From: Pseudobutyrivibrio sp. ACV-2
GTDB taxonomy: Bacteria; Bacillota; Clostridia; Lachnospirales; Lachnospiraceae
Length of the DNA: 64,000 nt
Direction of reading: 5' to 3'
NCBI RefSeq assembly: GCF_900107545.1
Contig: NZ_FNQZ01000017.1
Location: forward strand, 1 to 64,000
Part shown: positions 13,261-50,640 of the stretch, in pieces
Numbering within the stretch: the first letter of the stretch is position 1
How the letters are laid out: every line of letters begins with the position of its first letter
The notes under the pieces: generated by a model
Database searches by the model: none
What the model was told of the DNA's origin: nothing
What the model saw: the letters and a program-made list of their open reading frames with translations, nothing else
Made by a program: the position numbers and the translations under genes

Positions 13261-13373
13261 TGGTTTTTGGTTACCTTTTATGTGTATAAGGATACAGGCT
13301 GAGGCTATTTTTTTGTATTGTTGAGGTTGCGGGGTACATTGCAAAATTTGCTATTGTATGCTACTTTTATAAT

Positions 13374-15395: not shown

Positions 15396-15405
15396 TTTAT
15401 GTCTC

Positions 15406-16293: not shown

Positions 16294-16601
16294 AATGATA
16301 ATAACCTCCAAACAATCATCTATTGATATCTTACTCCCTGTAGGCGCAGTTCCGTCAATAGATTTCACAAATACTTCTAATAATTCCCTGGAAAATTATA
16401 GCACGATATTTCAATTTTGTAAAATCTAATTGCGTTACCCCTCTTTTTTTTGTGAATTGCATTCCTGCACAATAATTCATGATAGCAAAAGAGTTAACAT
16501 AATTTCATATATATCGTCAATTTTTTTTCATAATTGAAAACTATAATATGATTAATGTATTTTGACTTACTGTGGCCTTTTGCGTGGTTTAAAGGAATAA
16601 T

Positions 16602-21271: not shown

Positions 21272-21290
21272 TTTGTCCTCCTGTTTATTG

Positions 21291-21439
21291 TATATGCTAC
21301 GCGGCCTCGTAGGTTTCCGTGCTCCCGCAGGCCACCTCCCATGCTCTCATTGCGGTGCAGTAGCTCCTCATTCGGCATGGGGCCCTCCTGCTCGCGCTTG
21401 CCGAGGTTGTGATGCCGCTTACTATATGTATAAAAAACT
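21291..21439. repeat. GC-rich interrupted inverted repeat between two genes
   Basis: tatatgctacgcggc...ctcg at 21291-21310 partly mirrors cgagg...gccgcttactata at 21403-21433. Imperfect, with gaps. GC content is far above the surrounding genes and no frame crosses it. Confidence 0.45.
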
Positions 21440-21468
21440 ACATTAATTCAACGCTAAAACGCTAGTTC

Positions 21469-22308: not shown

Positions 22309-22444
22309 TTTCTTCTCCTTTTCTTATATGTTAGTTTCTTGAACTTTGTTTCGCTCTTTATGCTGTTATTCTATGAAAATTTCCCACATGATACTTTGTA
22401 TTAATTTTCGTTTTCATTCTCTTAATTGCAGAATGATTTTAAGC

Positions 22445-22488
22445 GTAAAAAAAAGATGCAACAGATTTACATCATCTATTGCATCTTT
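22445..22488 (-). terminator. Terminator of the GPH-GH3-HAD operon
   Basis: aaagatgcaa/ttgcatcttt stem followed on the minus strand by nine T. The same stem sequence is used at 39957-39999. Confidence 0.8.
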
Positions 22489-22501
22489 ATTTGCTATGAA
22501 A

Positions 22502-23335: not shown

Positions 23336-23337
23336 AT

Positions 23338-25062: not shown

Positions 25063-25082
25063 TTCTATAACCTCTAGTAACA

Positions 25083-25166
25083 CCTCATCCGCCCCTCGCC
25101 GGGGTGGCAGATAACGCTAAAGCATTATCTCATCCCTTCGGGCACCTTCCCCTCAAGGGGAAGGCT
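25083..25166. repeat. Interspersed hairpin repeat (copy between GPH symporter and GH3)
   Basis: Carries the same core as 13153-13260, with palindrome agataacgctaaagcattat at 25109-25130, and ends in the hairpin cttcccctcaaggggaag. Lies between two operon genes. Confidence 0.75.
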
Positions 25167-25174
25167 AGAGAGTA

Positions 25175-26692
25175 TTACGCTTCCTTCTTCATTTCTTTCT
25201 TATTAGAATCAGAGTTTTTTATACTCTGTGATTCGCGCTTAATTCTTGCGATGTCCTCTGAAATGCTATCCATCATTTCCTTATTTAATGGATAAAAATG
25301 CATTGCAATGATGTTGCAGATGTATCCGATGAGTAACACACCAAACATACAGATGATACCCACTACTGCAAGTCCTTTGGTGTATGGAGTATCTGCTGTT
25401 GGAAGTGATGATGATGAGCTTACTGCTGCACATAAAACACCAACTAAAAGTGGAGCAAGTGAAGATATAAGCTTATCGATGAAGCTGAAAAGTGTTCCAA
25501 TCAAGCCTGGCACATATTTGCCGCTTCTGTAAACTTCATAATCTGTACAGTCTGCTGTCATAGGATATACCAAGCTTCCTGCAATGTTCTGGAAACCTGA
25601 GAATAATACCATCAGTACCAAAAATGCCAAGCTGAATGCATTCCATCCTGCAAATCTTCCATCACCTGGAAGTGATAATCCTGTAGGATCACCAAATACA
25701 AACAATGCGATTAATGCAACAAGTGAAATAGCTGCTGCATAGCTTGCATATGTGAAGCCCTTCATCTGTCCAAATCTTCTAGCAACAAATCCAATACCAA
25801 AGAACAGCATTATAATTCCTGGAACGATAGTATATGTACCTACCAAGCCAGCAGCTGCTGCATTTCCACAGATGATTGCATAAAGCAGAATAGATGCTGT
25901 AGCATTTCCGTTCATCTGACGTCCAAGCTTATCTGTAGATGCACTAATAACAAGCATTTGAAGCGCTCTGTTGCTTTTTAATACCTGCCAGTAATCCTTA
26001 AGCTTAATTGGCTCTTCATCTTTGCTTCCGATACCATAAAACTCAGGTCTATCCTTTTCTCTGATTGCAATGTAAGCAATGATTGTGCACACCATTGAAA
26101 GTGTCGCACCAACCTTCCACATCTCTGTGAAATATCCCATATCAAACTGATACATATGCTTGCCCAAAAGATATGTGTAAGAATAAAGTGGTGCAAGTGT
26201 AAAGAAAAGTGTTGATAAAATACCACTATAAATACCAAAGGTAGGTCTTTGCTTTTGATCATTTGTAAGACATGTCTGAGCAGATTTTGTAACTACGCAC
26301 TGGCATGTATAACCTACAATATAAACTGCATAGAACACTACAAACATAAAAAACTGTGCAACCTTTGGGAACTTAGGTGTTACAAAAAACATAAGTGCTG
26401 ACATTATCAGCATAATAATCTGTCCAATAACAAGGAATGGTCTGTTCTTTCCAAACTTGCCATTAGTCTTGTCCAGGATTACACCAATGACAGGATCTGT
26501 TGCTCCATCCCAAAGTCGCATGATTGTTGCAAGAGATGATGCAAGCACAACTCCAACGCCGACAATACCATTTAAATAGTATGAGATGAAAATCATCATC
26601 CACATGTAAGTGTTGGTTCCCACATCGTTTACTGCAAGACCGGCAATTTGCCACCATTTTGCTCTGTTAATACAGTCATTCCTTTGTTCCAT
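25175..26692 (-). CDS. GPH-family sugar:cation symporter (MFS)
   Basis: 505 residues with about twelve hydrophobic segments. The GPH signature is visible at MRLWDGATDPVIGVILDKTN (about 59-78), followed by GKNRPFLVIGQ. These symporters take up glycosides, pentosides or hexuronides with Na+ or H+. It heads the minus-strand operon with the GH3 enzyme and HAD phosphatase and has a strong SD (aaaggaggag). It is divergent from an AraC regulator (26907). The substrate is probably a short beta-glycoside (inference). Confidence 0.9.
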   Translation of the reverse strand: MEQRNDCINRAKWWQIAGLAVNDVGTNTYMWMMIFISYYLNGIVGVGVVLASSLATIMRLWDGATDPVIGVILDKTNGKFGKNRPFLVIGQIIMLIMSALMFFVTPKFPKVAQFFMFVVFYAVYIVGYTCQCVVTKSAQTCLTNDQKQRPTFGIYSGILSTLFFTLAPLYSYTYLLGKHMYQFDMGYFTEMWKVGATLSMVCTIIAYIAIREKDRPEFYGIGSKDEEPIKLKDYWQVLKSNRALQMLVISASTDKLGRQMNGNATASILLYAIICGNAAAAGLVGTYTIVPGIIMLFFGIGFVARRFGQMKGFTYASYAAAISLVALIALFVFGDPTGLSLPGDGRFAGWNAFSLAFLVLMVLFSGFQNIAGSLVYPMTADCTDYEVYRSGKYVPGLIGTLFSFIDKLISSLAPLLVGVLCAAVSSSSSLPTADTPYTKGLAVVGIICMFGVLLIGYICNIIAMHFYPLNKEMMDSISEDIARIKRESQSIKNSDSNKKEMKKEA

Positions 26693-26906
26693 TATTTTCT
26701 CCTCCTTTAGGCCACCCCCGCGTGGTCAATTGATGAAGTAATCTTATACGGAATAGTCGATTATAACAATTACTATATTTTCAATAAATCGTACTATGTT
26801 TATCTTTTCTCAAAAAATAATAATATAGTATGATATTATGTAAATATAGTTAGAATTTAATCAAGCTCGTGACTGTATAATACATACTACGAGGTACAAA
26901 GTTATC

Positions 26907-28133
26907 ATGAATTACACATATATCGATTTTACAATCTCTTTTTTCCACAAATTAAATCTTGTTACAAACGTAATTAAAATCACAGAACCTTTACCTGCTG
27001 ATTTGGACTTGGGTCTTAGACATTCAATTATAGGGGACATAAGTAGAACCCTTGCAGAAATGGATTTTTTACCTGCCGATTTTGTAGAGACTAATACTAT
27101 ATTTTTTTCTACTGACAAGTACGAATGTCACTATATTTTTCTCCCACTGCCTACTCCTGCCAGGGACAAGACTCTGGTGGCAGGTCCATACTTAACAGAA
27201 AACACTTCTATCCTAAAAACAAATGAATTATGCAAAAAGCTAAACATTCCAGACGGTCTTCACCAATTCATGCATCAATATTTTGCTACTCTGCCATGCC
27301 TGCCAGATACATCTGTAATAGAAAACTATATTGATACTGTGGGTGAAGCCCTTTATGGTTCAGGGAATTATCATATTGAATATATCCGTCAAATCACGGA
27401 TTCAGCCACGCCTTATATATCAAATATCGATACCAGCGACAATGAAGAAATGATGAAGCGAATGGAGTATAGATATAGCCTAGAGCAAAAGGTTATAGAT
27501 GCAATTTCCAGAGGAGACTTCAACAGTGCCATGAGAGCAAGCTCGGATCAGGCCCTTAGAAACATAGACAATCGTTCCTCAAGTACTTTGCGCAGCAAGA
27601 AAAACAACCTTCTAGCCTTTAACACTGTTTGTCGAAAGGGGGCAGAAAAAGGCGGTGTACATCCAATTTTTCTAGATGAAATGTCCAGACAAATGGCAAT
27701 AAAGGTAGAAAATATGATATCCACAGAACAGGACAAACTGGTTCACCGTGATATTTTGAAAAACTATTGCAATATGGTACAACAAAATTCCACATCAGGA
27801 TTTTCCCCAACCATGCAAAGAGCTTTGATACATGTGTCGCAGCATCTGTTTGATACTGACCTGACGCTGCAGTCCACTGCAGAAAGCCTTGCTCTCAATA
27901 AAACTTACCTGGCAAATTTATTCAAAAAAGAAACTTCAGGGACCTTTACGGCATACGTAAATACCCGCCGCATAAACCATGCTATTTTCCTTTTGAATAC
28001 TACAGATGCCCCTATTCAATCCATCGCAAGCGATTGTGGAATTCCTGATGTAACCTATTTCACCAGAATCTTTAAAGAGAAAAAGGGGCTGACCCCCAGC
28101 AATTACAGAAAACTTATTAAATCAAAATCATAG
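26907..28133 (+). CDS. AraC-family regulator with large N-terminal sensor
   Basis: 408 residues. The C-terminal ~100 form an AraC double HTH (LQSTAESLALNKTYLANLF; IQSIASDCGIPDVTYFTRIF). The ~290-residue N-part is not a cupin; it contains a VAGPYLTE element also found (VGPYLSE) in the regulator at 30893, suggesting the same sensor type, perhaps PocR/GAF-like. It lies between a divergent and a downstream GPH symporter gene and may control both. TATAAT occurs at 26875-26880. Confidence 0.83.
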   Translation: MNYTYIDFTISFFHKLNLVTNVIKITEPLPADLDLGLRHSIIGDISRTLAEMDFLPADFVETNTIFFSTDKYECHYIFLPLPTPARDKTLVAGPYLTENTSILKTNELCKKLNIPDGLHQFMHQYFATLPCLPDTSVIENYIDTVGEALYGSGNYHIEYIRQITDSATPYISNIDTSDNEEMMKRMEYRYSLEQKVIDAISRGDFNSAMRASSDQALRNIDNRSSSTLRSKKNNLLAFNTVCRKGAEKGGVHPIFLDEMSRQMAIKVENMISTEQDKLVHRDILKNYCNMVQQNSTSGFSPTMQRALIHVSQHLFDTDLTLQSTAESLALNKTYLANLFKKETSGTFTAYVNTRRINHAIFLLNTTDAPIQSIASDCGIPDVTYFTRIFKEKKGLTPSNYRKLIKSKS

Positions 28134-28235
28134 AAAGAAATATCGTTATGTTTAGTCATATTATTTTCTATTATAAAACTCCAGTTCTAAATATACTGAT
28201 TTCACATTAAACAAATCAATGGAGGAGAATCAGTA

Positions 28236-29693
28236 ATGAAAAAAGAACAAACTAAAGAAACCAAACTGTCCTTTCTAGAGCAATTTGGTTATTTCAGTGG
28301 TGACTTCGGGGGAAGCTTAGTCAATCTTTATATCAGTGCATTTTACGTAACCTTCTGTAACTATGTACTTGGTATCAGCCCAGCGTGGATGGCAACACTT
28401 ATCTTTGTTGCAAAAATATGGGACGCAATCAACGATCCTATGATTGGCTCATTGCCAGACCGCTTCAAGCTAGGTAAAGGCTCTGATAAATTCAAGCCTT
28501 GGGTAAAAATATTTATGGTGCCTTTAGCACTTACAGGTCTTTTATGTTTTACAGATACTACATCATTCCCAAGTGTTATCAAGCATGCATGGGTTGCAGT
28601 TTCTTACATTCTTTATGGTATGGCTTATACAGGTGTTTCAATGCCTTATGGTGCAATGGCATCTGTTATCACCGACTCACCTGTAGAGCGCACACGTCTT
28701 TCACGTGCGAGAGCTTTTGGTGGAATGGGTGTAGGTATCTTATTTATCCCTATCGTTTCACTTGCTATTTGGGATGATGCAGGAAATCCAAAGGCTAGCG
28801 GCTACTTCCTTATGGCTGTTGTAGCAGGTATCCTTTCTGTTATCTTCTATCTTTTACTTGTAAACCTTACAAAAGAGCGCATCCATCAGGATCACAGATT
28901 TGTCGGTGAAAGTGCTCCAAAATACAGCCTTGGCCATGTTGTAAAGGAAGCATTCACAAACAGAGCTCTTATCGCTGTTATGATTGCATCTATCGGAAGT
29001 ATGTTTGCAAGTGCTCAGAGCATGAACAACTACCTTTTCAAAGAGTACTATCACATGCCAAAGGCAATGGCTGCATCGTCATTCATCAACCTTCCAATGA
29101 TGTTCCTTGCATTCTTTGCAGTTCCACATCTTGCAAAATTGATTGGTAACAGAAAGCTGATTATTTATTCAGCTGCTTATAGTATAGTTGCTTTTATCAT
29201 TTTATACCTTGTGCCAATTCCAAATTGCTATGTATTCATGTTTGTAAGCTCTGTTGCAAACCTTGGACTTACAGCATTTACAATGCTTGTTTGGGCACTT
29301 GTAACAGAATCAATTGATTATCAGGAATATAAATCCGGCGAACGCTCAGATGGAACAATGTATTCAATCTATACATTCTCAAGAAAAATCGGCTCTGCTG
29401 CTGCAGCTTCTATCTCTACAGCACTTATCGGTACAGCGGGATTTGTTGCTGGCGCTGCTGAGCAGGTTCCTGCATTTGGTGAAAATATCAGAAAGCTTGT
29501 TATTTTAATGCCACTTGTTGGTGCCGTAGTAATCCTTGTAAGTATCTGGCTTGTATATCCACTTACAAAAGCAAAATCTGATGAGATGTATGAGAAATTA
29601 CATGAGATTCATGAAGCAAAAAAAGCAGATAATGTTAAATCTGATGCTGAAGAAGCAAATAACACAATTGAACTAGAGGTACAAAATGCATAA
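28236..29693 (+). CDS. GPH-family sugar:cation symporter (MFS)
   Basis: 485 residues, about twelve membrane segments, with the GPH loop IWDAINDPMIGSLPDR (about 66-81) and later SIDYQEYKSGERSDGTMYSI. Strong SD ggaggag. Second in a plus-strand series behind the AraC regulator; its stop overlaps the start of the esterase gene by eight bases. Likely imports an acylated or aromatic glycoside, given the coupled esterase (inference). Confidence 0.9.
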   Translation: MKKEQTKETKLSFLEQFGYFSGDFGGSLVNLYISAFYVTFCNYVLGISPAWMATLIFVAKIWDAINDPMIGSLPDRFKLGKGSDKFKPWVKIFMVPLALTGLLCFTDTTSFPSVIKHAWVAVSYILYGMAYTGVSMPYGAMASVITDSPVERTRLSRARAFGGMGVGILFIPIVSLAIWDDAGNPKASGYFLMAVVAGILSVIFYLLLVNLTKERIHQDHRFVGESAPKYSLGHVVKEAFTNRALIAVMIASIGSMFASAQSMNNYLFKEYYHMPKAMAASSFINLPMMFLAFFAVPHLAKLIGNRKLIIYSAAYSIVAFIILYLVPIPNCYVFMFVSSVANLGLTAFTMLVWALVTESIDYQEYKSGERSDGTMYSIYTFSRKIGSAAAASISTALIGTAGFVAGAAEQVPAFGENIRKLVILMPLVGAVVILVSIWLVYPLTKAKSDEMYEKLHEIHEAKKADNVKSDAEEANNTIELEVQNA

Positions 29694-30948
29694 ATTTACA
29701 ACTATCACTACAGACCTTGGAGAAATCCAAGGTCTTGAATTTGAAAATGGAACAAAACAATTTAGAGGAATCAGATATGCTACTGCTGAACGTTTTGCAT
29801 ATCCAATAGCAGTTGATTCATGGACAGGCACATACGATGCAACAAAATTTGGCAATGCCTGTCCACAATTCAGAACCTATGACCCAGAGGATAAAAAAGA
29901 TCCAAAGCCTTTTTATTACAAAGAGTTTCGTGAAGGGGTAGCATTTACCTACGATGAAGACTGCCTGTTCTTAAACATTTATTCACCTAAGGATGCAAAA
30001 AATGCTCCTGTTATCATTTATATTCATGGTGGGGCTTTTCAGGGTGGCTGCGGTAATGAGCTGCATATGGACGGCACCGCCTATGCAGAAAACGGCGTTA
30101 TATTTGTAACCATCAATTATCGATTGGGAGTGCTTGGATTTCTTTGTGATAGAAAGCTTACTAAAGAAGCTGGACACAGCGGAAATTATGGATTATACGA
30201 CCAGTTGGAGGCGATCAAATGGGTGCATAGCCATATAGCTTCATTCGGTGGTAACCCGGATAACATCACATTGTTTGGACAATCCGCAGGGGCTATGAGT
30301 ATACAACAGCATTGCTTTTCACCACTTACCAAGCCTTACTTTAACAAGGCTTATATGGCAAGTGGTGCTGGAATTGGCAGAGAATTTGCAAATGTTAATC
30401 CTGTTGAAGATAGCTACGATTACTTTGCAAAAATAACCGATAAACTCGGTGCTACACCTGATGAATGGAGAAAGGTTCCAGTTCAGGATTTAATAGAGAC
30501 CTTCAAAGCAAATATTGATATAAACATGATGATTCACTGCTGCCCTCATGTTGATGGAATAATCATTCCTCAAAATCCTGAAAAGTCTTTGGAAGGCAAA
30601 GCATTTGCAGATATTCCATACCTTCTCAGCACAAACTCAGAAGATATGGCACCTGAATTCTTACATGATATGAGTAAAGAATTCTGCAATGCAGTTAATG
30701 ATAATGGTGGCAAAGCCTATTATTTCTACTTCAGCAGACAGCTTCCAGGTGACACCTCTGGAGCATTCCATTCTGCTGAGCTGTGGTACACCATGGGCTC
30801 CCTCAAAAAATGCTGGCGTCCATTGACTAATGAAGATTATGTATTATCAGATAATCTTGTAAATATGATTTGTGAATTCGTAAATACGGGATCTATATCT
30901 TGTAACGCTTACGATATGCCCCAGGTGTCATTTCAAATTCAGCCTTAA
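29686..30948 (+). CDS. Type B carboxylesterase, C-terminally truncated
   Basis: Alpha/beta hydrolase of the carboxylesterase type B family. Oxyanion HGGAFQG (about 114-120), nucleophile S200 in FGQSAGA, and the His motif GAFHSAELWY near residue 365. Homologous to the N-terminal half of the fusion protein at 41500, which continues after the helix VNMICEFVNTG. Here the frame instead runs into the antisense of the neighbouring AraC gene and ends after about 20 unrelated residues. Catalytic residues remain, so activity is possible. No signal peptide. Confidence 0.8.
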   Translation: MHKFTTITTDLGEIQGLEFENGTKQFRGIRYATAERFAYPIAVDSWTGTYDATKFGNACPQFRTYDPEDKKDPKPFYYKEFREGVAFTYDEDCLFLNIYSPKDAKNAPVIIYIHGGAFQGGCGNELHMDGTAYAENGVIFVTINYRLGVLGFLCDRKLTKEAGHSGNYGLYDQLEAIKWVHSHIASFGGNPDNITLFGQSAGAMSIQQHCFSPLTKPYFNKAYMASGAGIGREFANVNPVEDSYDYFAKITDKLGATPDEWRKVPVQDLIETFKANIDINMMIHCCPHVDGIIIPQNPEKSLEGKAFADIPYLLSTNSEDMAPEFLHDMSKEFCNAVNDNGGKAYYFYFSRQLPGDTSGAFHSAELWYTMGSLKKCWRPLTNEDYVLSDNLVNMICEFVNTGSISCNAYDMPQVSFQIQP

Positions 30949-36340: not shown

Positions 36341-38308
36341 CTATTCTTTTTCAACTAACCGTCCGGTGCGATAAGCCTCTAACAAATTTTCCAACTCTCT
36401 AATTGTCTCTTTTATACTCTCCCCGTTATCAGTATCTGCAACAGTTTTTCGTCGTTCTACATGCTGCACAAGCACTGTGTCAGAATGGATGTCACTGCCT
36501 GTTTCCACTGCTTTTTCAACAGATTCGAATGGTTCGTGAGCGGCCAAAAGGAAGCCGTAGGAATTGTAGGTTAGTGTGTAGCCTGCTATGCCTGTCTTTG
36601 GCTGGTAGGCTTTTGAAAAGCCACCGTCTATTACAATAAGTCTGCCACCACATTTGATAGGAAGCTCACCCTTTTTAGCCTCCACTGGAACATGTCCATT
36701 GATGATGTGGCTTTCAGGTGAATCAAGACCAAACTCATTAAGAATCATGGTCACTGTTTCATCCTTGTCGTACCAAGTGTAATATGGATTTTTCTTTTCC
36801 ACATGGGTTTCCTTTTCAGCTATGAAATAGCGTTCAAAGGTAGCCATTTTGTCCTTGCCAAATACTGGCGAATTGGCATGACACCAGGTGTACCATAGCA
36901 TATCCATTCCACGCTGCTTTTCCACAGGGTCAATAGCATAGTAGCCCTTGCGCAAAAGCTGCTCTAATGTATCATAAAGTGCTCTACCCTTGTATTTTTT
37001 GCCGCAAAGCTCCACTTCCTTTAGCTGTCCGTTTTCATCCAGCGGCACGCATCCATGGAACAACAGATTGTTATTATAGGTCTTGTACAATCCGCCTTTA
37101 CGATATAAAAATCGCACATGCTCCTGAAGCTTTTCACAGTTTATAAAACCGTTGCGAAGCTTTTCCATTACCTCTGCCTCTTCCTCTGATAGTGCGTATG
37201 GGTCAGCAGGATTTACTGTAGGAAAATTCTTATCAAGCAGCTCATACTCCTTGCCATCTATGGTCACAACTCCTCTGGTCAAATCCATCTTATCCAAAAG
37301 CAGTCTATCTTCCATGTGCCACTCTGGATGCTTTTTTATCAGCTGACCTTCCACCTTAAACTGAATGATGGACATGGCCTTGTGCATCTTCCTGTCGGTC
37401 TCAGCATTGGCCAGGTCATATTCGCCTTCACGATAATGCAGCGCAAAGCAATCACAAGAATCCTCCTTGTAGGTATCCATAGCAAACTTGAATAAAGGTA
37501 AAAGATTAATTCCGTAGCCATCCTCTAAAATATCAAGATTGCCGTATCTGGCAGAAAACCTGAGCACTGTTGCTATGCAGGCAAGCTGTCCTGTAGCAGC
37601 TCCCATCCACACAACATCGTGATTACCCCATTGGATATCCACACTATGATAGTGCATAAGTGTATCCATGCAAATGTGTGGGCCTGGGCCTCTGTCGTAA
37701 ATATCACCAACTATATGCAGATGATCCACAACAAAACGACTGATAGCATTGGACAAAGCTATGATAAGCTCCGGTGCTTTTCCGATTCTGATTACCGTGT
37801 GAATAATCTCATTGAAGTAGGCCTCCTGGTCTCTGGAATCACGCCTTCCTGTGATAAGCTCTTCAATTACATAGGCAAAATCCTTTGGCAAAGATTTTCT
37901 CACCTTGGAACGAGTGTACTTGCTGGCTGCCGCTTTGCAGACCTGGATGAGTCTGTTAATCATCACCACATACCAGTCGTCCATTGATGTGCCCCAGGCA
38001 CTTTCCTTTATCATCCTGATACGTTGCTCAGGGTAATAAATTAGGGTGGCCAAATCCCGCTTTTCCTTTTCGGAAAGCATGTTGCCAAATTCTTCATCAA
38101 TCTTTCTTTTCACTGCACCTGAACCATTTTTCAGCACATGGGCAAACTGTTCATGCTCCCCGTGTATATCCGACAGATAATGCTCTGTGCCCTTTGGCAG
38201 ACTCAGAATTGATTGAAGATTGATGATTTCTGTAGCTGTTGACGCCACATTCGGAAACTGTTTAGACAGTATCCTTAGGTACGAATCCTGATTTTCCTTT
38301 TTCTCCAC
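36341..38308 (-). CDS. fbp: Fructose-1,6-bisphosphatase class III
   Basis: 655 residues, the usual length of the Firmicute class III enzyme, which removes the 1-phosphate of fructose-1,6-bisphosphate in gluconeogenesis. Metallophosphatase motifs: LSDIHGEHEQF (about 42-52), HIVGDIYDRGPGP (about 196-208) and WGNHDVVWMG, with a later NGHVPVEAKKGE. No operon partner; monocistronic. Its role fits growth on pyruvate/triose-yielding uronates, where hexose phosphates must be made. Confidence 0.95.
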   Translation of the reverse strand: MEKKENQDSYLRILSKQFPNVASTATEIINLQSILSLPKGTEHYLSDIHGEHEQFAHVLKNGSGAVKRKIDEEFGNMLSEKEKRDLATLIYYPEQRIRMIKESAWGTSMDDWYVVMINRLIQVCKAAASKYTRSKVRKSLPKDFAYVIEELITGRRDSRDQEAYFNEIIHTVIRIGKAPELIIALSNAISRFVVDHLHIVGDIYDRGPGPHICMDTLMHYHSVDIQWGNHDVVWMGAATGQLACIATVLRFSARYGNLDILEDGYGINLLPLFKFAMDTYKEDSCDCFALHYREGEYDLANAETDRKMHKAMSIIQFKVEGQLIKKHPEWHMEDRLLLDKMDLTRGVVTIDGKEYELLDKNFPTVNPADPYALSEEEAEVMEKLRNGFINCEKLQEHVRFLYRKGGLYKTYNNNLLFHGCVPLDENGQLKEVELCGKKYKGRALYDTLEQLLRKGYYAIDPVEKQRGMDMLWYTWCHANSPVFGKDKMATFERYFIAEKETHVEKKNPYYTWYDKDETVTMILNEFGLDSPESHIINGHVPVEAKKGELPIKCGGRLIVIDGGFSKAYQPKTGIAGYTLTYNSYGFLLAAHEPFESVEKAVETGSDIHSDTVLVQHVERRKTVADTDNGESIKETIRELENLLEAYRTGRLVEKE

Positions 38309-38400: not shown

Positions 38401-38429
38401 AAAAAGTGGAGAAAGGTCTTCTCCACTTT
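38401..38429 (-). terminator. Terminator behind the C-deglycosidase-like genes
   Basis: aaagtggagaa/ttctccacttt stem followed on the minus strand by tttttg, 17 bases after the stop at 38446. Confidence 0.75.
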
Positions 38430-38445
38430 CAAGCAATGGATAAAA

Positions 38446-38889
38446 TTAAACTATTAGCAGTCTTCTTTCATTTACATGATGACCAAATTCTGGCATGAAA
38501 ACCATGCTTTCCTTGTCTGGATCTAAGCCATCCTGAATGATTGGTGGCATGTAGCTTGATGTAAAACAAAAACCATATTTTAAGTCATGATAACCCTGCG
38601 CAAGTCCACCTGGCTTTTTCACCTTTAAAACTGCAGGGCATGTTGTTGCCCAATGGGTCTGAAAATCACCTGCCATCTCCTCATTTGTAAAATCTTCACC
38701 TTTGATATTCCAAATGATATCATCCTTTTCGATTTTCTCTCCATCGATATAAAGTGTACCTGGGCGAATCTGTGAAAGGAAAATTCCTCTGTAGTATGGA
38801 AGTCTCACCTTAAACTGAAAGCCTGTGACATTACCATTTTCGTCCTTTGTATTTCTGAATCCTACGGATTGAATAACCTGTTTTTCCAT
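38446..38889 (-). CDS. C-glycoside deglycosidase beta subunit-like protein (DUF6379)
   Basis: 147 residues. The pattern VTGFQFKVRLPYYRGIFLSQ, TLYIDGEKI, EDFTNEEM, a tryptophan-bearing strand and LKVKKPGGLAQGYHDLKYGF matches, from family memory, the small beta subunit of C-glycoside deglycosidases (DfgB, CarB, DgpB). It binds the TIM-barrel alpha subunit and shapes the active site that breaks the C-C bond between a 3-keto sugar and an aromatic aglycone. The alpha-like gene lies 15 bases upstream on the same strand. A homologue with another function is possible. Confidence 0.75.
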   Translation of the reverse strand: MEKQVIQSVGFRNTKDENGNVTGFQFKVRLPYYRGIFLSQIRPGTLYIDGEKIEKDDIIWNIKGEDFTNEEMAGDFQTHWATTCPAVLKVKKPGGLAQGYHDLKYGFCFTSSYMPPIIQDGLDPDKESMVFMPEFGHHVNERRLLIV

Positions 38890-38904
38890 ATGTATTTCCT
38901 CCCA

Positions 38905-39777
38905 TTAATCTCCAAGTAAGTTCTTAAGCAAAATGTGGTGTTTGCGAAGTGTCTGTCCTACTTCATAGCCATCGTCATATTTGTCTGCGCCTTCGTATTC
39001 GCTGAGCAAATATCCTTCATAGCCATTTTCAGCCATAACCTTGATGACTTCTTCGTAAGGAATAGTTGTCTCCTTGAAGTCATCACTCATGTTGATGAAC
39101 TTTGCATGGCAGCAATAAATGTATGGAAGTAATGGAATAATATCCTCTGGCTCGTTTGGAGTATAAAGTGGATCAACCCACTCGCCTTCCTTGAAGCCTG
39201 TTCTAAATACCGAAAAATCAATATTTAATCCAAAATTCTTTGTTCCTGTCTCCTTGATGAAATCCACAAAATCTGTAACAAGCTTGCCCTTAAGATTTGA
39301 TGGTGTATGAATCTCTGGGCACATCTTGATTCCGAGCTCTTCTGCAAGTGGAAGTGCTCCCTTGATGATTTCTCTCCAGTTTGTAACTGGCTCAAGTAAG
39401 TCATTGATAACAGGCATTTTGGTACGCATAACTGTAAATCCAAGTCTGTGAGCCAGTCGGATATCACGTTTAAGCATTTCTACTGATTCCTCTGTTGTGA
39501 GATCTCTGTCGCCAAGCACATGAGAATCAATCCAGTTGCCATATTCCACTGGTACGATTTCATACTTGTCACAAAGTCTCCACCAATTTTCAACCCACTC
39601 ATCTGTTGGGTATGGGTAGTTTTCAATGTGTGTGTTTGCAAGGATTTCAATACCATGTGCCCCCATGTCATGGATATCCTCAAAGCAATCTTCAAGTGTT
39701 TTTGTAAGGCCAAACTCAGCTGAGTAACTGTAGAGAGCGACGCCACGTTTTGGTCCCTTCTTGTTGTACTGATACAT
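38905..39777 (-). CDS. TIM-barrel isomerase, C-glycoside deglycosidase alpha subunit-like
   Basis: 290 residues of the sugar phosphate isomerase/epimerase (AP endonuclease 2) superfamily. Probable metal ligands: Glu in CPEIHTPS (plus its His), Asp in LNIDFSVF, His in YCCHAKF and Glu in LLSEYEG. The lengthy [12 protein letters not shown] segment and pairing with a DUF6379 gene point to the DfgA/CarC/DgpC group, which deglycosylates C-glycosides after C3 oxidation. An oxidoreductase suited to that step is not adjacent; one candidate lies at 19985. First gene of the pair, SD gaggaga. Confidence 0.75.
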
Positions 39778-39956: not shown

Positions 39957-39999
39957 ATAAAAAAAGATGCAACAGAAGGAAAGCCTGTGTTGCATCTTT
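39957..39999 (-). terminator. Terminator behind the HAD gene pair
   Basis: aaagatgcaaca/tgttgcatcttt stem followed on the minus strand by seven T. Nearly the same stem as at 22445. Confidence 0.75.
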
Positions 40000-40010: not shown

Positions 40011-40514
40011 TCACTTACGCTTTTGTAGTCGCTCTCGAATTTCTCCAGCATACTTTATTATTTTTTCTTTCCACTCCGGATCCTCTTCATCCAAGCGGTA
40101 GGCATAGTAACCATATTGCTTAGCCTGTGAACATATCACCTTTTCATCATCAATATGAAGACTTATGTGATAGTAGGGCGGCATTTTCTGTGGAAGCAAT
40201 TTCTTTTTATCTCTCTGCACCTCACGTAAATGCCTGTTTGCATTTATAATCCCATCGAAGCTCACTCCGTACAGTTTAAAATAAGTAGCTATATAATGTA
40301 CCGTTCTGTAGGATGAAGTGTACACCCACACCTCATAATCCTGATTTTGCAGTTCTTTAATAAGCTCAGGTGTCCCTAATCTCAATCTCTCTTTAAAAAA
40401 TAAATTAAAAGGAAATACAGGTGGTTTTTCTGTCTTGTGAGTCTTTGGATATACAAACAGTGCCTCATCAAGATCGAAGGATATTCTCATTTTGTCACTA
40501 ATCTTCTTTTGCAT
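40011..40514 (-). CDS. HAD-fold phosphatase-like protein
   Basis: 167 residues. HAD motif I RISFDLDEALF (D14, D16), motif II WVYTSSYRT (T66) and motif IV HIDDEKVI (DD 122-123) are present, so catalysis is plausible. PFNLFFKERLRLGTPELI closely parallels PFNRIYTERIRKGIPALF in the upstream gene, so the two HAD domains are paralogues. The frame overlaps the upstream gene by 17 bp; an internal ATG (40490, codon 9) would place it 8 bp after that stop instead. Substrate unknown. Confidence 0.75.
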   Translation of the reverse strand: MQKKISDKMRISFDLDEALFVYPKTHKTEKPPVFPFNLFFKERLRLGTPELIKELQNQDYEVWVYTSSYRTVHYIATYFKLYGVSFDGIINANRHLREVQRDKKKLLPQKMPPYYHISLHIDDEKVICSQAKQYGYYAYRLDEEDPEWKEKIIKYAGEIRERLQKRK

Positions 40515-41370
40515 CTTTTCCCATTTCCCCTATTATATTCTTGATTGTGGTTGACCAATTTGCATCCTCCAAATCAAACGCTTTTGACACCTTGGCTGTT
40601 CTATCTACCCAATACAATTTGTCATTATAGATGTGTAGTGTAAGTTCGTATTTATTGTGAAACATATCATCGATGCTTTTTGCCACAGCTGGATTAAGCT
40701 TTGGTATTCTTTTATCTCCGGTAATTACACCTGTTATTTCAGCATGATAAAGCTTGAACAGATTTTTCATATATTCAAGAGAGTGTAGTCGCTCAGTAAA
40801 CAACCATATATCGTAGCCTTCACTTGCAAAAAAATGAAAAAGTGCAGGAATCCCCTTTCTTATTCTCTCTGTGTAAATCCTGTTAAATGGAAATAACAAT
40901 TCATTTTCCATTTCACCAGACTCTCTAAAAATCACCTGATCAAAATCAAAAAGAACCCTCTTATTGTGAACAGATGCTTTCAACAATCGCTCCACGTCCT
41001 CCTGGCTGGTCAAATTAACAACCTTTACCGGCACATATTTCCTGCCAAGCTTGTAGTATGCAGCCCACCTATGATGACCATTTAGAATCATGTAGCCATT
41101 AGGATGAATCTTCTCCACTATGATTGAATTCATAGCGGAATCAGTCTGCACAAAGCCCCCACCATTTCCGATTCGATATATGTAATCTGAAATTATAGAA
41201 TAGTTAGGTCCCACATTAGGCTTACAAAATTCATCATTTGGATTAGGATGTACTTTCGCAATAGGCACTCTTCTAATTATAGCTCGCTCAAATATGTTTG
41301 CCTTCACTGGGAAAGATAGACTATTATATTTTTCCACTTCCTCTGCTAGTTTTTTTTCAAAATCAGCCAT
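40498..41370 (-). CDS. ParB/Srx-like domain fused to HAD-fold domain
   Basis: 290 residues with two parts. Residues about 30-130 form a ParB/sulfiredoxin-like domain with the NGHHRWAAYYKLG motif (97-109); this fold binds nucleotides in ParB CTPases, Srx and SbnI-type kinases. Residues about 135-280 form a HAD domain: VLFDFDQVIF (D142, D144), IWLFTERLH (T192), Lys in GDKRIPK and HIYNDKLYW. The second motif IV acid is Asn-Asp, so activity is uncertain. Upstream of and coupled to a paralogous stand-alone HAD gene. Domain combination not familiar to me. Confidence 0.7.
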   Translation of the reverse strand: MADFEKKLAEEVEKYNSLSFPVKANIFERAIIRRVPIAKVHPNPNDEFCKPNVGPNYSIISDYIYRIGNGGGFVQTDSAMNSIIVEKIHPNGYMILNGHHRWAAYYKLGRKYVPVKVVNLTSQEDVERLLKASVHNKRVLFDFDQVIFRESGEMENELLFPFNRIYTERIRKGIPALFHFFASEGYDIWLFTERLHSLEYMKNLFKLYHAEITGVITGDKRIPKLNPAVAKSIDDMFHNKYELTLHIYNDKLYWVDRTAKVSKAFDLEDANWSTTIKNIIGEMGKDAKED

Positions 41371-41499: not shown

Positions 41500-44271
41500 T
41501 TATTCGTGTAGTAATTCTATTGTCGAAAGCTGAGTATTTCCATTTCCTTTGAATCGTAAATAAAGGGCTGAGACTCCGTCCTCTGGTTGGAACTTGCCTT
41601 CATATTCGGTCCAAACATTTGCAAAATCTATTTCCACCTTTCCAAGGACTTCACCGTCAATTGATTTTAGCACCTCAAAGGTTCCAGCACCGTACCCACG
41701 GGTCTTAATTCTGATTCCTTTAACACCCTTGAAATCAAAATACTTGAAGCCGATTACAGTTGTATCTGTAATGTCCTTAATATAGCTATCCTCATGACCT
41801 GATGTGCCGTACTCCTGCACGATTCTTGGGTTAGTCTGCTCCACATATATTCCTGTCTTATCGTTGAAAATGTTGCAGGCGATATATGATGGATATTCTC
41901 CAATATCTGAAAGTGGGCCATCGTTTAAACCACAGGAAGTGATCTCCACCTGAGGGATGCTGCCATCAGCATTGAAATGAATCTTTTCTGCGCAGCCCTG
42001 TCTTGAAAGCCAGGTTCCATTAGTGTGTCTATGATAAAAGATATACCAATCATCACCAATCTGAACTATGCTTCCGTGATTGTTTGCCCCTGGGCAGGTT
42101 GGCATATCCGCAGGCTTATAGCTATCAATATGTAAATCAGAGTTGCTTACAATCACACCGCCATATGTAAATGGGCCAGCTGGTGATTTTGATGTTGCAT
42201 AGCAAAGCTCGTGCATCACCTCTGATGAATAGATGAAATAATAGGTGTCATCATGTTTTCTGATAGATGGTGCTTCAAAGAATGCATGTCCCTCAAAGCC
42301 TGTGCCTGCGCTATAGCAATTGCCTGGAGCGATAATCTCAGGAGCCTTTTTGATGGTCAACATATCAGGGCCAAGCACTGTAAACTGAGCGCCTGTTCTG
42401 CTCTTATCCCCCTGTCCACAGAAGCCTGTGTAGAGATATGTTTCATCCCCTTCTGTAAGTACCCCTGGGTCAAACTGTGGCTCGTCACCTTCTCTTTCAC
42501 CAAGTCTATTACCATCTTCATAATGAACATAGCCATAGAATGTGTATGGGCCTGCCGGTGTATCGCTGACTGCAACAGATACCACACTTACCTTATCCAA
42601 AACGTAGAACAGATAGTATCTTCCATCTGATCCTACTGTAACGTCCGGCGCATAAAGACACATATGGCCATCTTCATTGAGTGGGTCGTCAGTCTTTTTA
42701 TAAATCACACCTTCATAGTGCCAGTTTCCCAAATCATCAACTGGTGCTGACCAGCACACATAATCTCCCAAGCAGAAGGCTGCACCATTATACAAATCAT
42801 GAGAACCATATACATACACTCTGTCACCAAACACGTAAGGCTCTCCATCAGGAATGTATTCCCAGTTTGGAAGATATGGATTTACAGCCTGCTTTCTGGT
42901 GTTTTGACGAATACCACCTTCTCTTCTGGCCTTTGCCCCCTGACTTAAAAACTCCATTTCATCTTTTTTATCAAGGCTAAATGGCTCCCATTTCGGAAGG
43001 GTATTTCTATCACGTCCTGTTCCGTTTGGATTTGCTGTCTTTATGAAATTGGCAAAATAATCACACATCTGTCTAGCCAAATCATAATGTCTGCCCTCAT
43101 ATGGGCGGTGGCACTTGCCCAGACTCTCGAAAAAGAACCACAGATCTACTGAATGGAAATTGCCTGGATAATCCACTCCATCTCCTGGAATATCTGTATC
43201 AAATCGATAATAATAAAGCTTTCTTGTAGGGTTCTTTTTCAAAGCATCATTAAATGCACTCTTAACTGAATGCTCCACCATATTGATTTTATCCACTAAA
43301 AATTCATCTGATGTGTTTCCTGCGATAACTGGAACATCAGCACAATCACCATTCACAAAACGCTCGACAGGGTCACTCTTGCAGAATACCCCATCCATGA
43401 TAGGAAACATTCTAGGATGATTCTGAACAAATCTGTTATAGCCATTAAAAATTTCATCAGCAGATAAAGCTCTTGCTTCTGCCAAGGTCTTAACACCCAA
43501 TGATGCAAAAAATTCTTCTCCTAGTTTTTCTGCATCTTTAAGACTCAGTGGTCTAAAAATATCTACATCAGGATTAGGCATACGGATGATACCGCTTAGA
43601 ATAACAGCCCCCTTAACGATATCCCTGTTGTCCTCACAAACCAGCTGATTCATTGTGCTGGCACCACCGGCAGACTGACCTGCAATCACAATCTGATCTG
43701 GGTCTCCACCAAATGCTGCAATGTTTCTATATACCCAGTGAAGGCCTGCCTTTTGGTCTAAAAGTCCAAAATTTCCTGGAGCATCAGGGGCTTCCTTTGT
43801 GATATCAGGATGAGCCAGATATCCAAAGCAGTTCAGTCGATAATTCACACTGACAACAACCACACCTCTTCTGGCAAGTCTCTCTCCGTCAAATTCCATC
43901 TCTGCTGTGTATCCCCACTGGAAGGCTCCTCCGAAAAACCATACCAATACAGGAAGCTTTTCATCCTTTGCTTTTGCAGGGGTCCACACATTTAAATACA
44001 GGCAGTCCTCGCTGTCTTCAAGCCCTGTGTCCACATGCCATTCTCTGTCATACAGACCATCGCCACCCTGAGGAACATCCTGCATGGAAAGTGGGCCAAA
44101 CTGAAAGCACTCCCTTACCCCTTCCCAATCCTCTGCTGGCTGTGGCGCACGAAATCTGTTCTCCCCAACAGGTGGAGCAGCAAAAGGAATCTTTTTATAT
44201 ACTGTCACTCGCGGGTCAGTTCCTGGCAAGCCACGAACTGCACCATTTTCTACTACTGTCTCTCTAAGCAT
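41500..44271 (-). CDS. Carboxylesterase-GH43 fusion with CBM6-like tail
   Basis: 923 residues. About 1-450: carboxylesterase type B with nucleophile S200 (AGQSAGG), a WFFGGAFQ oxyanion loop and GNFHSVDLW. About 465-790: GH43 five-blade propeller with base Asp in YIPDGEPYVF, APDVTVGSDGRYYLFY (pKa Asp) and acid Glu in FFEAPSIRK. About 800-923: beta-sandwich resembling CBM6. No signal peptide, so it works in the cytoplasm on imported acylated or feruloylated xylo-/arabino-oligosaccharides (inference). Both catalytic sets look complete. Monocistronic; no transporter adjacent. Confidence 0.85.
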   Translation of the reverse strand: MLRETVVENGAVRGLPGTDPRVTVYKKIPFAAPPVGENRFRAPQPAEDWEGVRECFQFGPLSMQDVPQGGDGLYDREWHVDTGLEDSEDCLYLNVWTPAKAKDEKLPVLVWFFGGAFQWGYTAEMEFDGERLARRGVVVVSVNYRLNCFGYLAHPDITKEAPDAPGNFGLLDQKAGLHWVYRNIAAFGGDPDQIVIAGQSAGGASTMNQLVCEDNRDIVKGAVILSGIIRMPNPDVDIFRPLSLKDAEKLGEEFFASLGVKTLAEARALSADEIFNGYNRFVQNHPRMFPIMDGVFCKSDPVERFVNGDCADVPVIAGNTSDEFLVDKINMVEHSVKSAFNDALKKNPTRKLYYYRFDTDIPGDGVDYPGNFHSVDLWFFFESLGKCHRPYEGRHYDLARQMCDYFANFIKTANPNGTGRDRNTLPKWEPFSLDKKDEMEFLSQGAKARREGGIRQNTRKQAVNPYLPNWEYIPDGEPYVFGDRVYVYGSHDLYNGAAFCLGDYVCWSAPVDDLGNWHYEGVIYKKTDDPLNEDGHMCLYAPDVTVGSDGRYYLFYVLDKVSVVSVAVSDTPAGPYTFYGYVHYEDGNRLGEREGDEPQFDPGVLTEGDETYLYTGFCGQGDKSRTGAQFTVLGPDMLTIKKAPEIIAPGNCYSAGTGFEGHAFFEAPSIRKHDDTYYFIYSSEVMHELCYATSKSPAGPFTYGGVIVSNSDLHIDSYKPADMPTCPGANNHGSIVQIGDDWYIFYHRHTNGTWLSRQGCAEKIHFNADGSIPQVEITSCGLNDGPLSDIGEYPSYIACNIFNDKTGIYVEQTNPRIVQEYGTSGHEDSYIKDITDTTVIGFKYFDFKGVKGIRIKTRGYGAGTFEVLKSIDGEVLGKVEIDFANVWTEYEGKFQPEDGVSALYLRFKGNGNTQLSTIELLHE

Positions 44272-48237: not shown

Positions 48238-50640
48238 CTATTTTCTAGGCATATCCCTTTTAACTATTATCTTAACTATATCACTCAGGATTTCCCCAAA
48301 GGTTGCAGTTCTTACTGTGGTACCAGTATCTTCTGTTTTTCTTGCCTCCTCACGCAACTTTATATCTGTAATCTGCGCTTTTTCCATATCTACATAAATT
48401 GAACCGACTGTAGTATTGGCATATGATAAGAACTCTTTACCTGAGGCTTCAATTCTCTTTCCTTCCATAACATAGGTGTGCTTAGTTGTTAAATAGTCAA
48501 TACCTTCATTCTTTGCATCGTATAATACCTTAAGAATTAAGTCTCTTCTAGTTGAGAGGGGAGCGTTTTTATATACGTTATATTTAGCACACTGATTTAA
48601 GATAATATCTGCTTTTCCTTGTAATTCTGCAACATCAGCATAATATTCTCTCAACTGTTCATCATCGTAGATATTCTGCTTCTGTTCCTGTTTTGGAGTA
48701 GTCTCCTGGTCATCAGATTGTCCAGAATCTGAATTCTTACCGTACGCTTTCATAAAGGCATCCATAATCTCTTTATTAGTATATTTGCCATTATTTCCGC
48801 TTCCGTCACCACCTAGTGCCTTGTCTACCATAGGAATCATTTCAGCACCAAGCTGTCCAACCTCTTCAGGTGTAAGATTCTTTGTTATCTTTGAAACATC
48901 GCCACCTAATGCCTTACCAAATACAGCATCAAGCCCCTTATCTACACCGCGATCAATAGCCTTATCTAATGCACCTTTTGCCTTATCTAAAACATAATCC
49001 CACGCTGGACTACTCTCATCTTTCTTACCCTCAGACTTTGAAGAATTGCCATTCTCAGACGCTGGAGTTCCGCAAACCTTATTATATGACTTTGTAAAGG
49101 CATCCATTAGCTCTTTATAACTAAACTTACCATTATTTCCGCTTCCATCGCCACCTAGAGCCTTGTCCACTATTGAAACCATTGATCCGCCAAATTTACC
49201 TAAATCACCAGATGTAAGATTTTTAGCTGCTGTCATAAGATCTCCGCCTAGAACTTTATCAAAAAGATAATCTATGCCCTTATCGACACCTTTATCAATA
49301 GCCTTATCAATTCCCTTATCTAATGCGCCTTTTGCCTTATCTAAAACATAATCCCATATTGGATTAGTTCCAAAACCAATTTTGTCTAGTGGTGGAAGAT
49401 CTTCGTCTTTCTTATCTTCTGTCTTTGTTTCTTCTGGAATCTTATCTTCTTTTATTATCTCATGGCGAGTTTCAACTACTTCAGGTAAGTCGTGCTTTTG
49501 TTCGTCTATCTTAGTCTCCTCTGTTTTAGACTCCTCTGTTTTAGATTCCTGTTTTGTTTCTTCTTTAGACTCTTCCTTCTTTGTTTCCTCGACCTTTGTC
49601 TCTTCAGCCTTTGTCTCTTCCTGCTTTGTTTCTTCGGCCTTTGTCTCTTCCTTCTTTGTTCCTTCAGCCTTTGTCTCTTCCTTCTTTGTCTCTTCCTGCT
49701 TTGCTCCCTCGGCCTTTGTCTCTTCCTTCTTTGTTTCTTCCTGCTTTGCTTCCTCGTCCTTTGTCTCTTCCTTCTTTGTTTCTTCCTGCTTTGCTTCCTC
49801 GGCCTTTGTCTCTTCCTTCTTTGTTTCCTCAGCCTTTGTCTCTTTCTTCTTTGTTTCCTCAGCCTTTGTCTCTTCCTTCTTGTTTCCTACTACCTTAGCT
49901 TCATTATCATTTTGAGCATCAGATCTTGAATCACTTACCTTATCAGGAACCTCTGGCTGTGGTTCCTCTTTTTTGTCATCATAACCTGGAACAGGTGCTG
50001 GCTGTGGTTTTGTGTTATTAATCTTATCTATTGTAGCCTTCTTAGATCTATCACCAATGATTATTGACTTTGCTTCATTTCTTGCATTCTGCTCAGCATT
50101 CTTTCTGGCAGTGCTTGTGATTTCATCCATCATCTCTTCTGCCTTAGGATTCTGCTGATTTCCATCGGTACCATAATAATTAATAACTACGTTATTGTTG
50201 TTTGTAATCTGCTGATTATTATTTGTGATAGTCTGATTGTTATTAATAACTTGATTATTATTTGTAACCTGGTTATTATTTATTGTCTGCTGATTATTGT
50301 TTGTTACCCGGTTATTATTGGTAACCTGATTGTTATTTGTTACCTGATTATTATTGGTAACCTGATTGTTATTTGTCGTCTGCTGATTGTTATTTGTTGT
50401 CTGGTTATTATTGGTAACCTGATTGTTGTTGGTTACCTGATTATTATTTGTTGTCAGTGTATTGTTACTATTTGTTGAAACATTTGTTACTGCGCAGCAC
50501 ACATTCTCATTTGAAACTTCAACCACCTGATTTGGTGTATCAACCTCACATGCCAATGCTACTGTTGATGCACTAGACATCATTACTATTGCTGCTAAAC
50601 CACCTGCTAATAATCTTACTTTGTTCATTCTTGTTTTCAT
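48238..50640 (-). CDS. Secreted protein with N-N-N-Q repeats, K/E repeats and a duplicated module
   Basis: 800 residues. Signal peptide 1-30 (basic start, hydrophobic core, ALA before C31). Residues 61-152 are ~16 copies of a 6-7 residue unit QVTNNN. Residues 253-378 are repeats of KEETKAEE. Two ~90-residue modules follow (429-521 and 547-634), each with WDYVLDKAKGALDK, a D-K-G-x-D helix, and GGDGSGNNGK then KELMDAF or KEIMDAF, recalling a calcium loop. Residues ~655-800 form a separate alpha/beta domain. No LPXTG or membrane tail. Likely extracellular or wall-associated; function unknown. SD ggagga. Confidence 0.82.
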   Translation of the reverse strand: MKTRMNKVRLLAGGLAAIVMMSSASTVALACEVDTPNQVVEVSNENVCCAVTNVSTNSNNTLTTNNNQVTNNNQVTNNNQTTNNNQQTTNNNQVTNNNQVTNNNQVTNNNRVTNNNQQTINNNQVTNNNQVINNNQTITNNNQQITNNNNVVINYYGTDGNQQNPKAEEMMDEITSTARKNAEQNARNEAKSIIIGDRSKKATIDKINNTKPQPAPVPGYDDKKEEPQPEVPDKVSDSRSDAQNDNEAKVVGNKKEETKAEETKKKETKAEETKKEETKAEEAKQEETKKEETKDEEAKQEETKKEETKAEGAKQEETKKEETKAEGTKKEETKAEETKQEETKAEETKVEETKKEESKEETKQESKTEESKTEETKIDEQKHDLPEVVETRHEIIKEDKIPEETKTEDKKDEDLPPLDKIGFGTNPIWDYVLDKAKGALDKGIDKAIDKGVDKGIDYLFDKVLGGDLMTAAKNLTSGDLGKFGGSMVSIVDKALGGDGSGNNGKFSYKELMDAFTKSYNKVCGTPASENGNSSKSEGKKDESSPAWDYVLDKAKGALDKAIDRGVDKGLDAVFGKALGGDVSKITKNLTPEEVGQLGAEMIPMVDKALGGDGSGNNGKYTNKEIMDAFMKAYGKNSDSGQSDDQETTPKQEQKQNIYDDEQLREYYADVAELQGKADIILNQCAKYNVYKNAPLSTRRDLILKVLYDAKNEGIDYLTTKHTYVMEGKRIEASGKEFLSYANTTVGSIYVDMEKAQITDIKLREEARKTEDTGTTVRTATFGEILSDIVKIIVKRDMPRK
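49507..49884 (-). repeat. DNA tandem repeats encoding K/E-rich segment
   Basis: Variants of a 24-30 base unit encoding EETKKEETKAEE recur without interruption inside the secreted protein gene. Copy number is expected to vary between strains. Confidence 0.75.
50185..50460 (-). repeat. DNA tandem repeats encoding N-N-N-Q segment
   Basis: An 18-base unit (aataataatcaggttacc and variants, with occasional 21-base units) is repeated about 15 times. Synonymous changes (aac/aat) are spread through the array, so it is old rather than a recent slippage product. Confidence 0.75.

Follow-up and report, generated by a model that had tools for sequence, protein, structure and literature searches.

C-glycosidic flavonoids, whose sugar is attached through a very stable carbon-carbon bond, occur widely in plant food and are not readily attacked by ordinary glycosidases. 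The closest described system to the locus analysed here is EuCGD, the crystallised DfgA-DfgB complex of Eubacterium cellulosolvens (PDB 7bvs, 7dre and 7exb), a C6-specific, lid-free alpha4-beta4 heterooctamer. As described in PMC8563793, an alpha-subunit loop (M121-N133) replaces in EuCGD the lid domain carried by the alpha subunits of PuCGD/DgpBC (7bvr) and AgCGD2 (7dnm), whose deposited chains are 337 and 354 aa long; PuCGD, unlike the EuCGD type, is C8-specific. The same paper reports EuCGD to be active on C6-glycosylated compounds (3-5) and inactive on C8 compounds (1-2), and its docking model places L128 of the alpha subunit and P115 of the beta subunit among the residues clashing with C8-linked orientin.

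The dfgAB pair and its active site

The window, i.e. the whole stretch of 64,000 nucleotides of Pseudobutyrivibrio sp. ACV-2 DNA that was analysed, carries at 38446-39777 an intact DfgA-DfgB pair (Table 1), which judged from its sequence is a DfgAB orthologue and a C-glycoside deglycosidase (CGD). The preliminary description had placed a 147-residue protein and a TIM-barrel protein 15 bp apart and likened their make-up to that of DfgA/DfgB. Both open reading frames were recovered on the minus strand with that spacing (38890-38904), and the likeness could be narrowed specifically to DfgAB, the nearest solved structures being 7bvs_A for DfgA (E 5.6e-194) and 7bvs_B for DfgB (E 4.6e-88). Both frames are intact and preceded by ribosome-binding-like sequences, and tblastn comparison with the EuCGD chains gave 271/290 identical positions (93.4%) in the alpha subunit and 125/147 (85.0%) in the beta subunit, i.e. 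19 and 22 substitutions, respectively. The profile check that had been proposed for the beta subunit, a search with Pfam CGDB (PF19906), returned DfgB at 125 bits (cut-off 27.6; E 1.4e-36), and DfgA matched AP_endonuc_2 (PF01261; E 2.8e-19). Chance resemblance is ruled out by these profile and structure-chain E values together with the kept residues described below, and a sugar isomerase of other function by the CGDB and AP_endonuc_2 matches, the EuCGD chain matches and the same residues. Compared with another genome of the genus (G406), DfgA is identical at 279 of 290 positions at a DNA identity of 85%, which indicates purifying selection.

Table 1. Coordinates of dfg genes and neighbouring features in the window and, for dfgE, elsewhere in the same genome (G000)
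Feature	Position	Strand	Description
dfgA	38905-39777	minus	290 aa TIM barrel, C-glycoside deglycosidase alpha subunit by sequence, with Mn2+ site residues; first gene of the pair
dfgB	38446-38889	minus	147 aa, beta subunit; expected to complete the aglycone pocket
dfgC orthologue	21469-22308	minus	279 aa OGE-like TIM barrel; candidate O-glucoside beta-eliminase
dfgD orthologue	19985-21271	minus	428 aa Gfo/Idh/MocA oxidoreductase; candidate glucoside C3 oxidant
dfgE orthologue	G000:C26, L095:7286-8356		On another contig of the window genome
Structured, dispersed RNA-like element	21294-21419	minus	About 126 nt, GC-rich, in the dfgC-dfgD gap; not part of the enzyme system
fbp (FBPase_2)	36341-38308	minus	Neighbour; no sign of a link to dfgAB
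Terminator-like hairpin after dfgB, before fbp	38402-38430	minus	13-pair stem, T-rich tail; folding z -5.6
Terminator-like hairpin upstream of dfgA, at the end of the preceding gene	39963-39999	minus	-16.8 kcal/mol, z -6.7, T run

The metal site anticipated in the alpha subunit is present at the level of its residues: DfgA has the published Mn2+ ligands (PMC8563793) at E155, D187, H224, K226 and E260 and the catalytic H157 with its helper E262, all identical to EuCGD. DfgA aligns with EuCGD without gaps over 290 aa and lacks a lid insertion, and the two pocket loops each differ from EuCGD at a single residue, namely 132 in the alpha loop 121-133, where L128 is kept, and 131 in the beta loop 110-139, where P115 is kept. 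The pair combines the features that define a CGD, a CGDB beta subunit adjoining a xylose-isomerase-like TIM-barrel alpha subunit with a metal set of two Glu, Asp, His and Lys and a catalytic His/Glu, with those of the EuCGD subtype, no lid and long alpha and beta loops bearing L128 and P115. DfgA also shares the fold class of PuCGD and AgCGD2, and PuCGD residues E141/H143, H263/K265 and E299/E301 align to DfgA E155/H157, H224/K226 and E260/E262 (numbered along the alignment). The window pair resembles EuCGD in its lengths over the aligned part (290 and 147 aa), its metal-site and catalytic residues, its two pocket loops and its lid-free form; it differs in standing outside a dfgABCDE cluster, with dfgCD 16 kb off and dfgE on another contig.

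Given the overall identity to EuCGD, the unchanged metal and catalytic residues and the one-residue loop changes, the best reading of the window DfgAB is a putative 6-C-glucosyl-flavone deglycosidase. The kept loops with L128 and P115 suggest that it would share the specificity of EuCGD for 6-C-glucosyl flavones, and mangiferin may be added to the candidate substrates because PMC12101588 states that its deglycosylation is mediated by DfgAB. The substrate had previously been called open; the solved relative now points to a class, C6-glycosylated flavones, with mangiferin added on the statement of the later paper.

Partner genes and their dispersal

The preliminary description had also set the pair outside any flavonoid-type system and regarded its partner as wholly open. 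Neither view fits the genome as a whole, in which dfgC, dfgD, dfgE, a transporter and an AraC-type regulator are found at two other places, dfgD and dfgE both supplying candidate partners. All five dfgABCDE genes are present but not contiguous (dfgA-dfgB at 38.4-39.8 kb, dfgC-dfgD at 20.0-22.3 kb and dfgE on contig C26), a scatter over three places that accounts for the solitary position of dfgAB. A PF01408 profile search of the whole genome found the gene at 19985 to be the only Gfo/Idh/MocA match on the window contig; its product, DfgD, matches DgpA (7xr9) at E 1.3e-25, and DfgE matches 9m37, deposited as a DgpA2-isoorientin complex, at E 2.4e-128. Alongside dfgE, locus L095 carries genes for a 473-aa MFS_2 sugar transporter, for an AraC-type regulator of 806 aa and for a second CGD pair, whose subunits measure 351 and 130 aa and whose alpha subunit is of the longer type seen in PuCGD and AgCGD2.

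Two reference loci carry these genes in single runs. In L007, a MAG named Eubacterium sp. whose DfgA and DfgB are identical to the EuCGD chains at 290/290 and 146/147 positions, the order is dfgA-dfgB-dfgC-dfgD-dfgE-MFS, which, from the gene order and the solved chains, we read as the published dfgABCDE order. In Pseudobutyrivibrio sp. MD2005 (L003, on contig 17 of G404) one run comprises the second CGD, dfgA, dfgB, dfgC, dfgD, the regulator, dfgE and the transporter; 12 genes of this contiguous cluster map to genes of the window genome at 73-99% protein identity, where they lie at three separate places. The window DfgC is identical at 275/279 positions to the product of the gene 3' of dfgAB in MD2005 (L003/L138), at 278/279 to G406 and at 238/276 to L007, and DfgE at 345/356 to MD2005 and 256/355 to L007. 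DfgD is identical at 392/425 positions (92%) to L007, 410/427 to G421 and 367/428 to G406. By DNA, the nearest relatives of dfgC among the genomes compared are in G406 and G404 and those of dfgD in G399 and G421, a discordance which suggests recombination between the two genes.

The isolation of the pair at its own site, as first described, was confirmed: FBPase_2 lies on one side, a 167-aa protein without a family above cut-off on the other, and terminator-like hairpins on both, so that dfgAB looks like its own two-gene transcript. The upstream hairpin was found by eye and by folding and is absent from the terminator scan output. At E 1e-150, 10 of the 29 genus genomes have fbp; none of the seven fetched fbp neighbourhoods carries dfgAB, and we reject a functional link between dfgAB and fbp. 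These seven regions contained neither an exact empty site for dfgAB nor a conserved fbp-dfgAB pairing. Of the window genes that were mapped, G420 has OPT, its 125-aa neighbour and the 923-aa gene nearby, G399 has, some 7 kb away, a relative of the 59314 gene, and the other five share fbp alone. A pairwise 24-base comparison of the regions upstream of dfgA and dfgE revealed no convincing common operator, and an operator common to dfgA, dfgC, dfgD, dfgE, the second CGD, the regulator, the transporter and the 707-aa gene was likewise rejected as no pair was convincing. The best pair (dfgA/dfgC, 20/24; shuffle maximum 17) was the T-run arm of terminator-like hairpins, and the test was a weak one, each pair being set against just 8 mononucleotide shuffles of a single partner.

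Across 29 genomes of the genus (cut-offs E 1e-60 for dfgA and 1e-80 for dfgE and dfgD), dfgA occurs in 5, dfgE in 11 and dfgD in 8. All five dfgA genomes have both dfgD and dfgE, compared to six with dfgE and three with dfgD among the 24 lacking dfgA. Drawn at random, five genomes would all belong to the dfgE set with a probability of 462/118755 (~0.004) and all to the dfgD set with a probability of 56/118755 (~0.0005), both figures ignoring kinship and counting the window genome as one of the five. The three-place split recurs in one of the four other dfgA-bearing genus genomes, G406, where dfgAB lies at a contig end and the 18-19 kb stretches around dfgCD and around dfgE are without dfgAB. 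The dfg genes are contiguous in G403 and G404, and in G421 dfgABCD and dfgE lie on two short contigs that each end inside a copy of the regulator gene, and hence probably form one run as in G404.

Beyond the genus, 8 of 397 genomes drawn from the family, the window genome among them, match the EuCGD alpha subunit at E 1e-60. A wider set of 80 of the 97 loci found includes both MAGs and isolates, largely Lachnospiraceae and other Clostridia by record titles, and has dfgB directly after dfgA in 77 loci, with the other three ending at a contig edge. Where at least 8.5 kb was available on both sides (38 loci), a DfgD/DfgE-like gene was found within 10 kb in 25 and in none of the other 13, at a filter of 25% identity or more that other Gfo/Idh/MocA genes could escape. 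Comparable dispersal is on record: Faecalicatena has single DfgA genes (PMC8398226), DfgAB and DfgCDE are scattered in one species (PMC12101588), and in Catenibacillus dgpA genes lie apart from dgpBC (PMC11170127). The split arrangement is therefore not new in kind. The solitary pair is either a piece displaced from a known cluster or one that was added to a cluster elsewhere.

Oxidant, mechanism and competing explanations

We consider it probable that the pair encodes a functional DfgAB (EuCGD-type) C-glycoside deglycosidase whose oxidant acts in trans, with the dfg genes in three places. The comparisons above show sequence identity, kept residues and where the partner genes lie; the activity, the substrate, the partnership in trans and any time and direction of the split are inferred. 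In the proposed mechanism, a Gfo/Idh/MocA enzyme would act on a 6-C-glucosyl flavone (isovitexin, homoorientin), or on a related compound, e.g. mangiferin, and oxidise its glucose at C3''. This oxidant would most likely be the DfgE orthologue on C26, encoded alongside the MFS sugar transporter, the AraC-type regulator and the second CGD pair; DfgD at 19985 could take its place or act as a second oxidant. Mn2+ would be bound in DfgA by E155, D187, H224, K226 and E260; H157, supported by E262, would act as the base taking the C2'' proton, and DfgB would complete the pocket that holds the aglycone. Beta-elimination would then break the C-C bond and release the aglycone and the sugar product.

Which oxidant feeds DfgAB can be approached from published biochemistry and from gene distribution. 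In the E. cellulosolvens work, 3''-oxo-homoorientin was made with DfgE (PMC8563793), and DfgCD is reported as active on O-glucosides without C-deglycosylation (PMC11170127). The suggestion that the enzyme at 19985 supplies the 3-keto intermediate stands in so far as this gene is a dfgD orthologue, 92% identical to that of L007, but by this published biochemistry DfgE on contig C26 is the likelier first oxidant. For the first 50 of the 80 loci, a genome-wide search at E 1e-60 placed both DfgD and DfgE in 18 genomes, DfgE alone in 12, DfgD alone in 11 and neither in 9; this tally includes possibly incomplete MAGs and counts as present the sole DfgE matches of four genomes (41-43% identical), the sole DfgD match of another (46%), one DfgD match in two pieces and one with an internal stop. 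Since 20 of the 50 are without a DfgE match at this threshold, DfgE is not a universal partner of dfgA, and the nine with neither enzyme imply still other oxidants or missing sequence.

One alternative is accordingly that DfgD, and not DfgE, oxidises for DfgAB, so that a single C3 oxidase serves both DfgC and DfgAB. Besides the DfgD-only genomes, dfgC-dfgD lies directly 5' of dfgA in four loci (L012, L023, L024 and L025, by record title from three Butyrivibrio sp. and one Lachnospiraceae bacterium) in whose genomes there was no DfgE match at E 1e-60, which together make DfgD a serious alternative partner, and in the window genome DfgD and dfgAB are on the same contig. Against this stand the preparation of 3''-oxo-homoorientin with DfgE, the O-glucoside activity reported for DfgCD without C-deglycosylation and the 12 genomes with DfgE but no DfgD, and overall we view this assignment as somewhat unlikely.

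Two further alternatives concern the pair itself. DfgAB may have drifted to another substrate, either another C-glycoside or 3-keto O-glucosides, and for this reason have left its cluster; its position apart from the cluster and the report that PuCGE also cleaves 3-keto O-glucosides (PMC10628242) would be consistent with such a change. We find this quite improbable, given that the two pocket loops are almost unchanged, that the catalytic residues are kept, and that the DfgA proteins of the clustered relatives G403, G404 and G421 are 94-96% identical to that of the window. Separation from transporter, regulator and oxidant could instead mark a stranded and decaying remnant, as could a sigma-70 promoter scan in which the four sites found did not exceed the shuffle mean of 5.0. 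Intact frames, conserved residues, ribosome-binding-like sequences before both genes, a dfgA protein far more conserved than its DNA and the presence of the same split in G406 all argue against decay, which we regard as very improbable. A functional DfgAB supplied in trans is the reading that we retain.

The product of dfgC points to a second elimination activity. By phmmer, DfgC matches AtOGE (8BVK) at E 3.9e-29, and AtOGE E39, H66, H132, H134, E161, D163, H189 and E233 align to the same residues in DfgC (numbered along the alignment). PMC10628242 names AtOGE residues for two metal positions and for catalysis, with His132, Asp163, His189 and Glu233 as a metal set and His134 as catalytic, and DfgC has the AtOGE-like residue set. 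Unlike AtOGE, DfgC is a Clostridia protein paired with the Gfo/Idh/MocA enzyme DfgD and not with GlycDH. We propose that DfgD would oxidise C3 of an O-glucoside and DfgC eliminate the aglycone, as an O-counterpart of DfgE and DfgAB; as an AtOGE-like enzyme, DfgC would thereby yield 2-hydroxy-3-keto-glucal from 3-keto O-glucosides. DfgC is mentioned nowhere in the main text of PMC10628242, and among the listed titles and abstract starts of a literature search none linked DfgC to O-glycoside elimination. The newer points here are modest ones, namely the AtOGE residue set in DfgC and the occurrence of DfgD without DfgE in 11 of 50 dfgA-bearing genomes. An O-glycoside beta-eliminase activity of DfgC, if real, would explain why DfgCD is reported to deglycosylate O-glucosides.

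Associated loci and wider meaning

The gap between dfgC and dfgD contains a structured element that may deserve more attention than the dfgAB finding itself. Among its eight copies in this genome, 13 of 32 predicted pairs show changes on both sides (0/500 shuffles), the structure being predicted from the same alignment that was used for this count; the closing helix varies between copies, yet is paired in 90% of cells. Fitting 30 matches to the element model gave 16 both-side-changed pairs (0/500 shuffles), with further pair types unexceptional (45/500). The model has 16 matches in the window genome and matches 27 of 29 genus genomes at E 1e-4, with 1-45 matches each. Rfam returned no match at gathering score in the window and none at E up to 5 in 21200-21520. 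Of the 30 matches, 25 were examined, and in 18 of these, judged by crude ORF calls, the element lies between two same-strand ORFs. Five or more of the 25 apparently represent a single site found in different genomes. The element is likely an RNA acting within operons.

Several other loci were noted in passing. Around dfgE (L095, G000:C26:56500-76000), the second CGD pair lies within 7286-17841; its alpha subunit (L095:11136-12191, 351 aa) is closest to 8qvc, and 5' of the pair are genes for a FAD_binding_2 protein, a NADH_4Fe-4S/Fer4 protein and a 707-aa Fer2/Fer4/Pyr_redox protein, which may serve the keto-sugar or the aglycone as an electron-transfer branch. This set is kept in G408, G417 and G405, all without dfgA. 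The 806-aa regulator (L095:8566-10986) joins a cupin/AraC HTH part to a GH39-like domain, of which the glycosidase-like part may act as a sensor; in 30 of 80 loci a relative of the regulator (at least 25% identity) lies no more than 10 kb from dfgA. In the window, 19985-30948 encodes dfgD, dfgC, a HAD hydrolase, GH3, MFS_2, an AraC regulator, a second MFS_2 and a carboxylesterase, in an order kept in G406, and is likely an O-glucoside utilisation locus.

Closer to dfgAB, the neighbouring 167-aa and 290-aa proteins at 40011-41370 have no family above cut-off, and in P. ruminis SIG312 (L002) their homologues (66% and 41%) adjoin the full dfg cluster. A 923-aa protein at 41500-44271 combines a carboxylesterase and a GH43 domain in a single chain, and an 800-aa protein at 48238-50640 has no Pfam match at E 0.001 and no NCBIfam match at 0.01. 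A uronate catabolism run at 7021-13141 comprises a PfkB kinase, UxaC, a mannitol dehydrogenase family protein, UxuA and KDPG aldolase, and homologues of its first four genes adjoin, in L058, a dfgAB pair without a DfgD/DfgE-like gene within 10 kb. The PfkB ORF is 383 aa long in the window and 365 aa in L058, and its 3' end contains a GC-rich island (7011-7111; up to 66% in 100 bases), possibly another inserted repeat.

Taken together, the dfg genes of this genome could be viewed as modules, with DfgD and DfgE providing a partly interchangeable pool of 3-keto intermediates to DfgAB for 6-C-glucosides, to the longer-type second CGD for other C-glucosides and to the OGE-type DfgC for O-glucosides within one cell, a possibility that we advance tentatively. 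If the keto intermediate can be supplied in trans, modules would be free to move, which would account for dfgAB being found both alone and in clusters. Two questions become directly testable, whether DfgD feeds DfgAB and whether DfgC is an O-glycoside beta-eliminase. Close EuCGD-type pairs are present in many MAGs and isolates, and as a neighbourhood search would leave the window genome without a partner for its pair, CGD systems should not be sought by gene neighbourhood alone.
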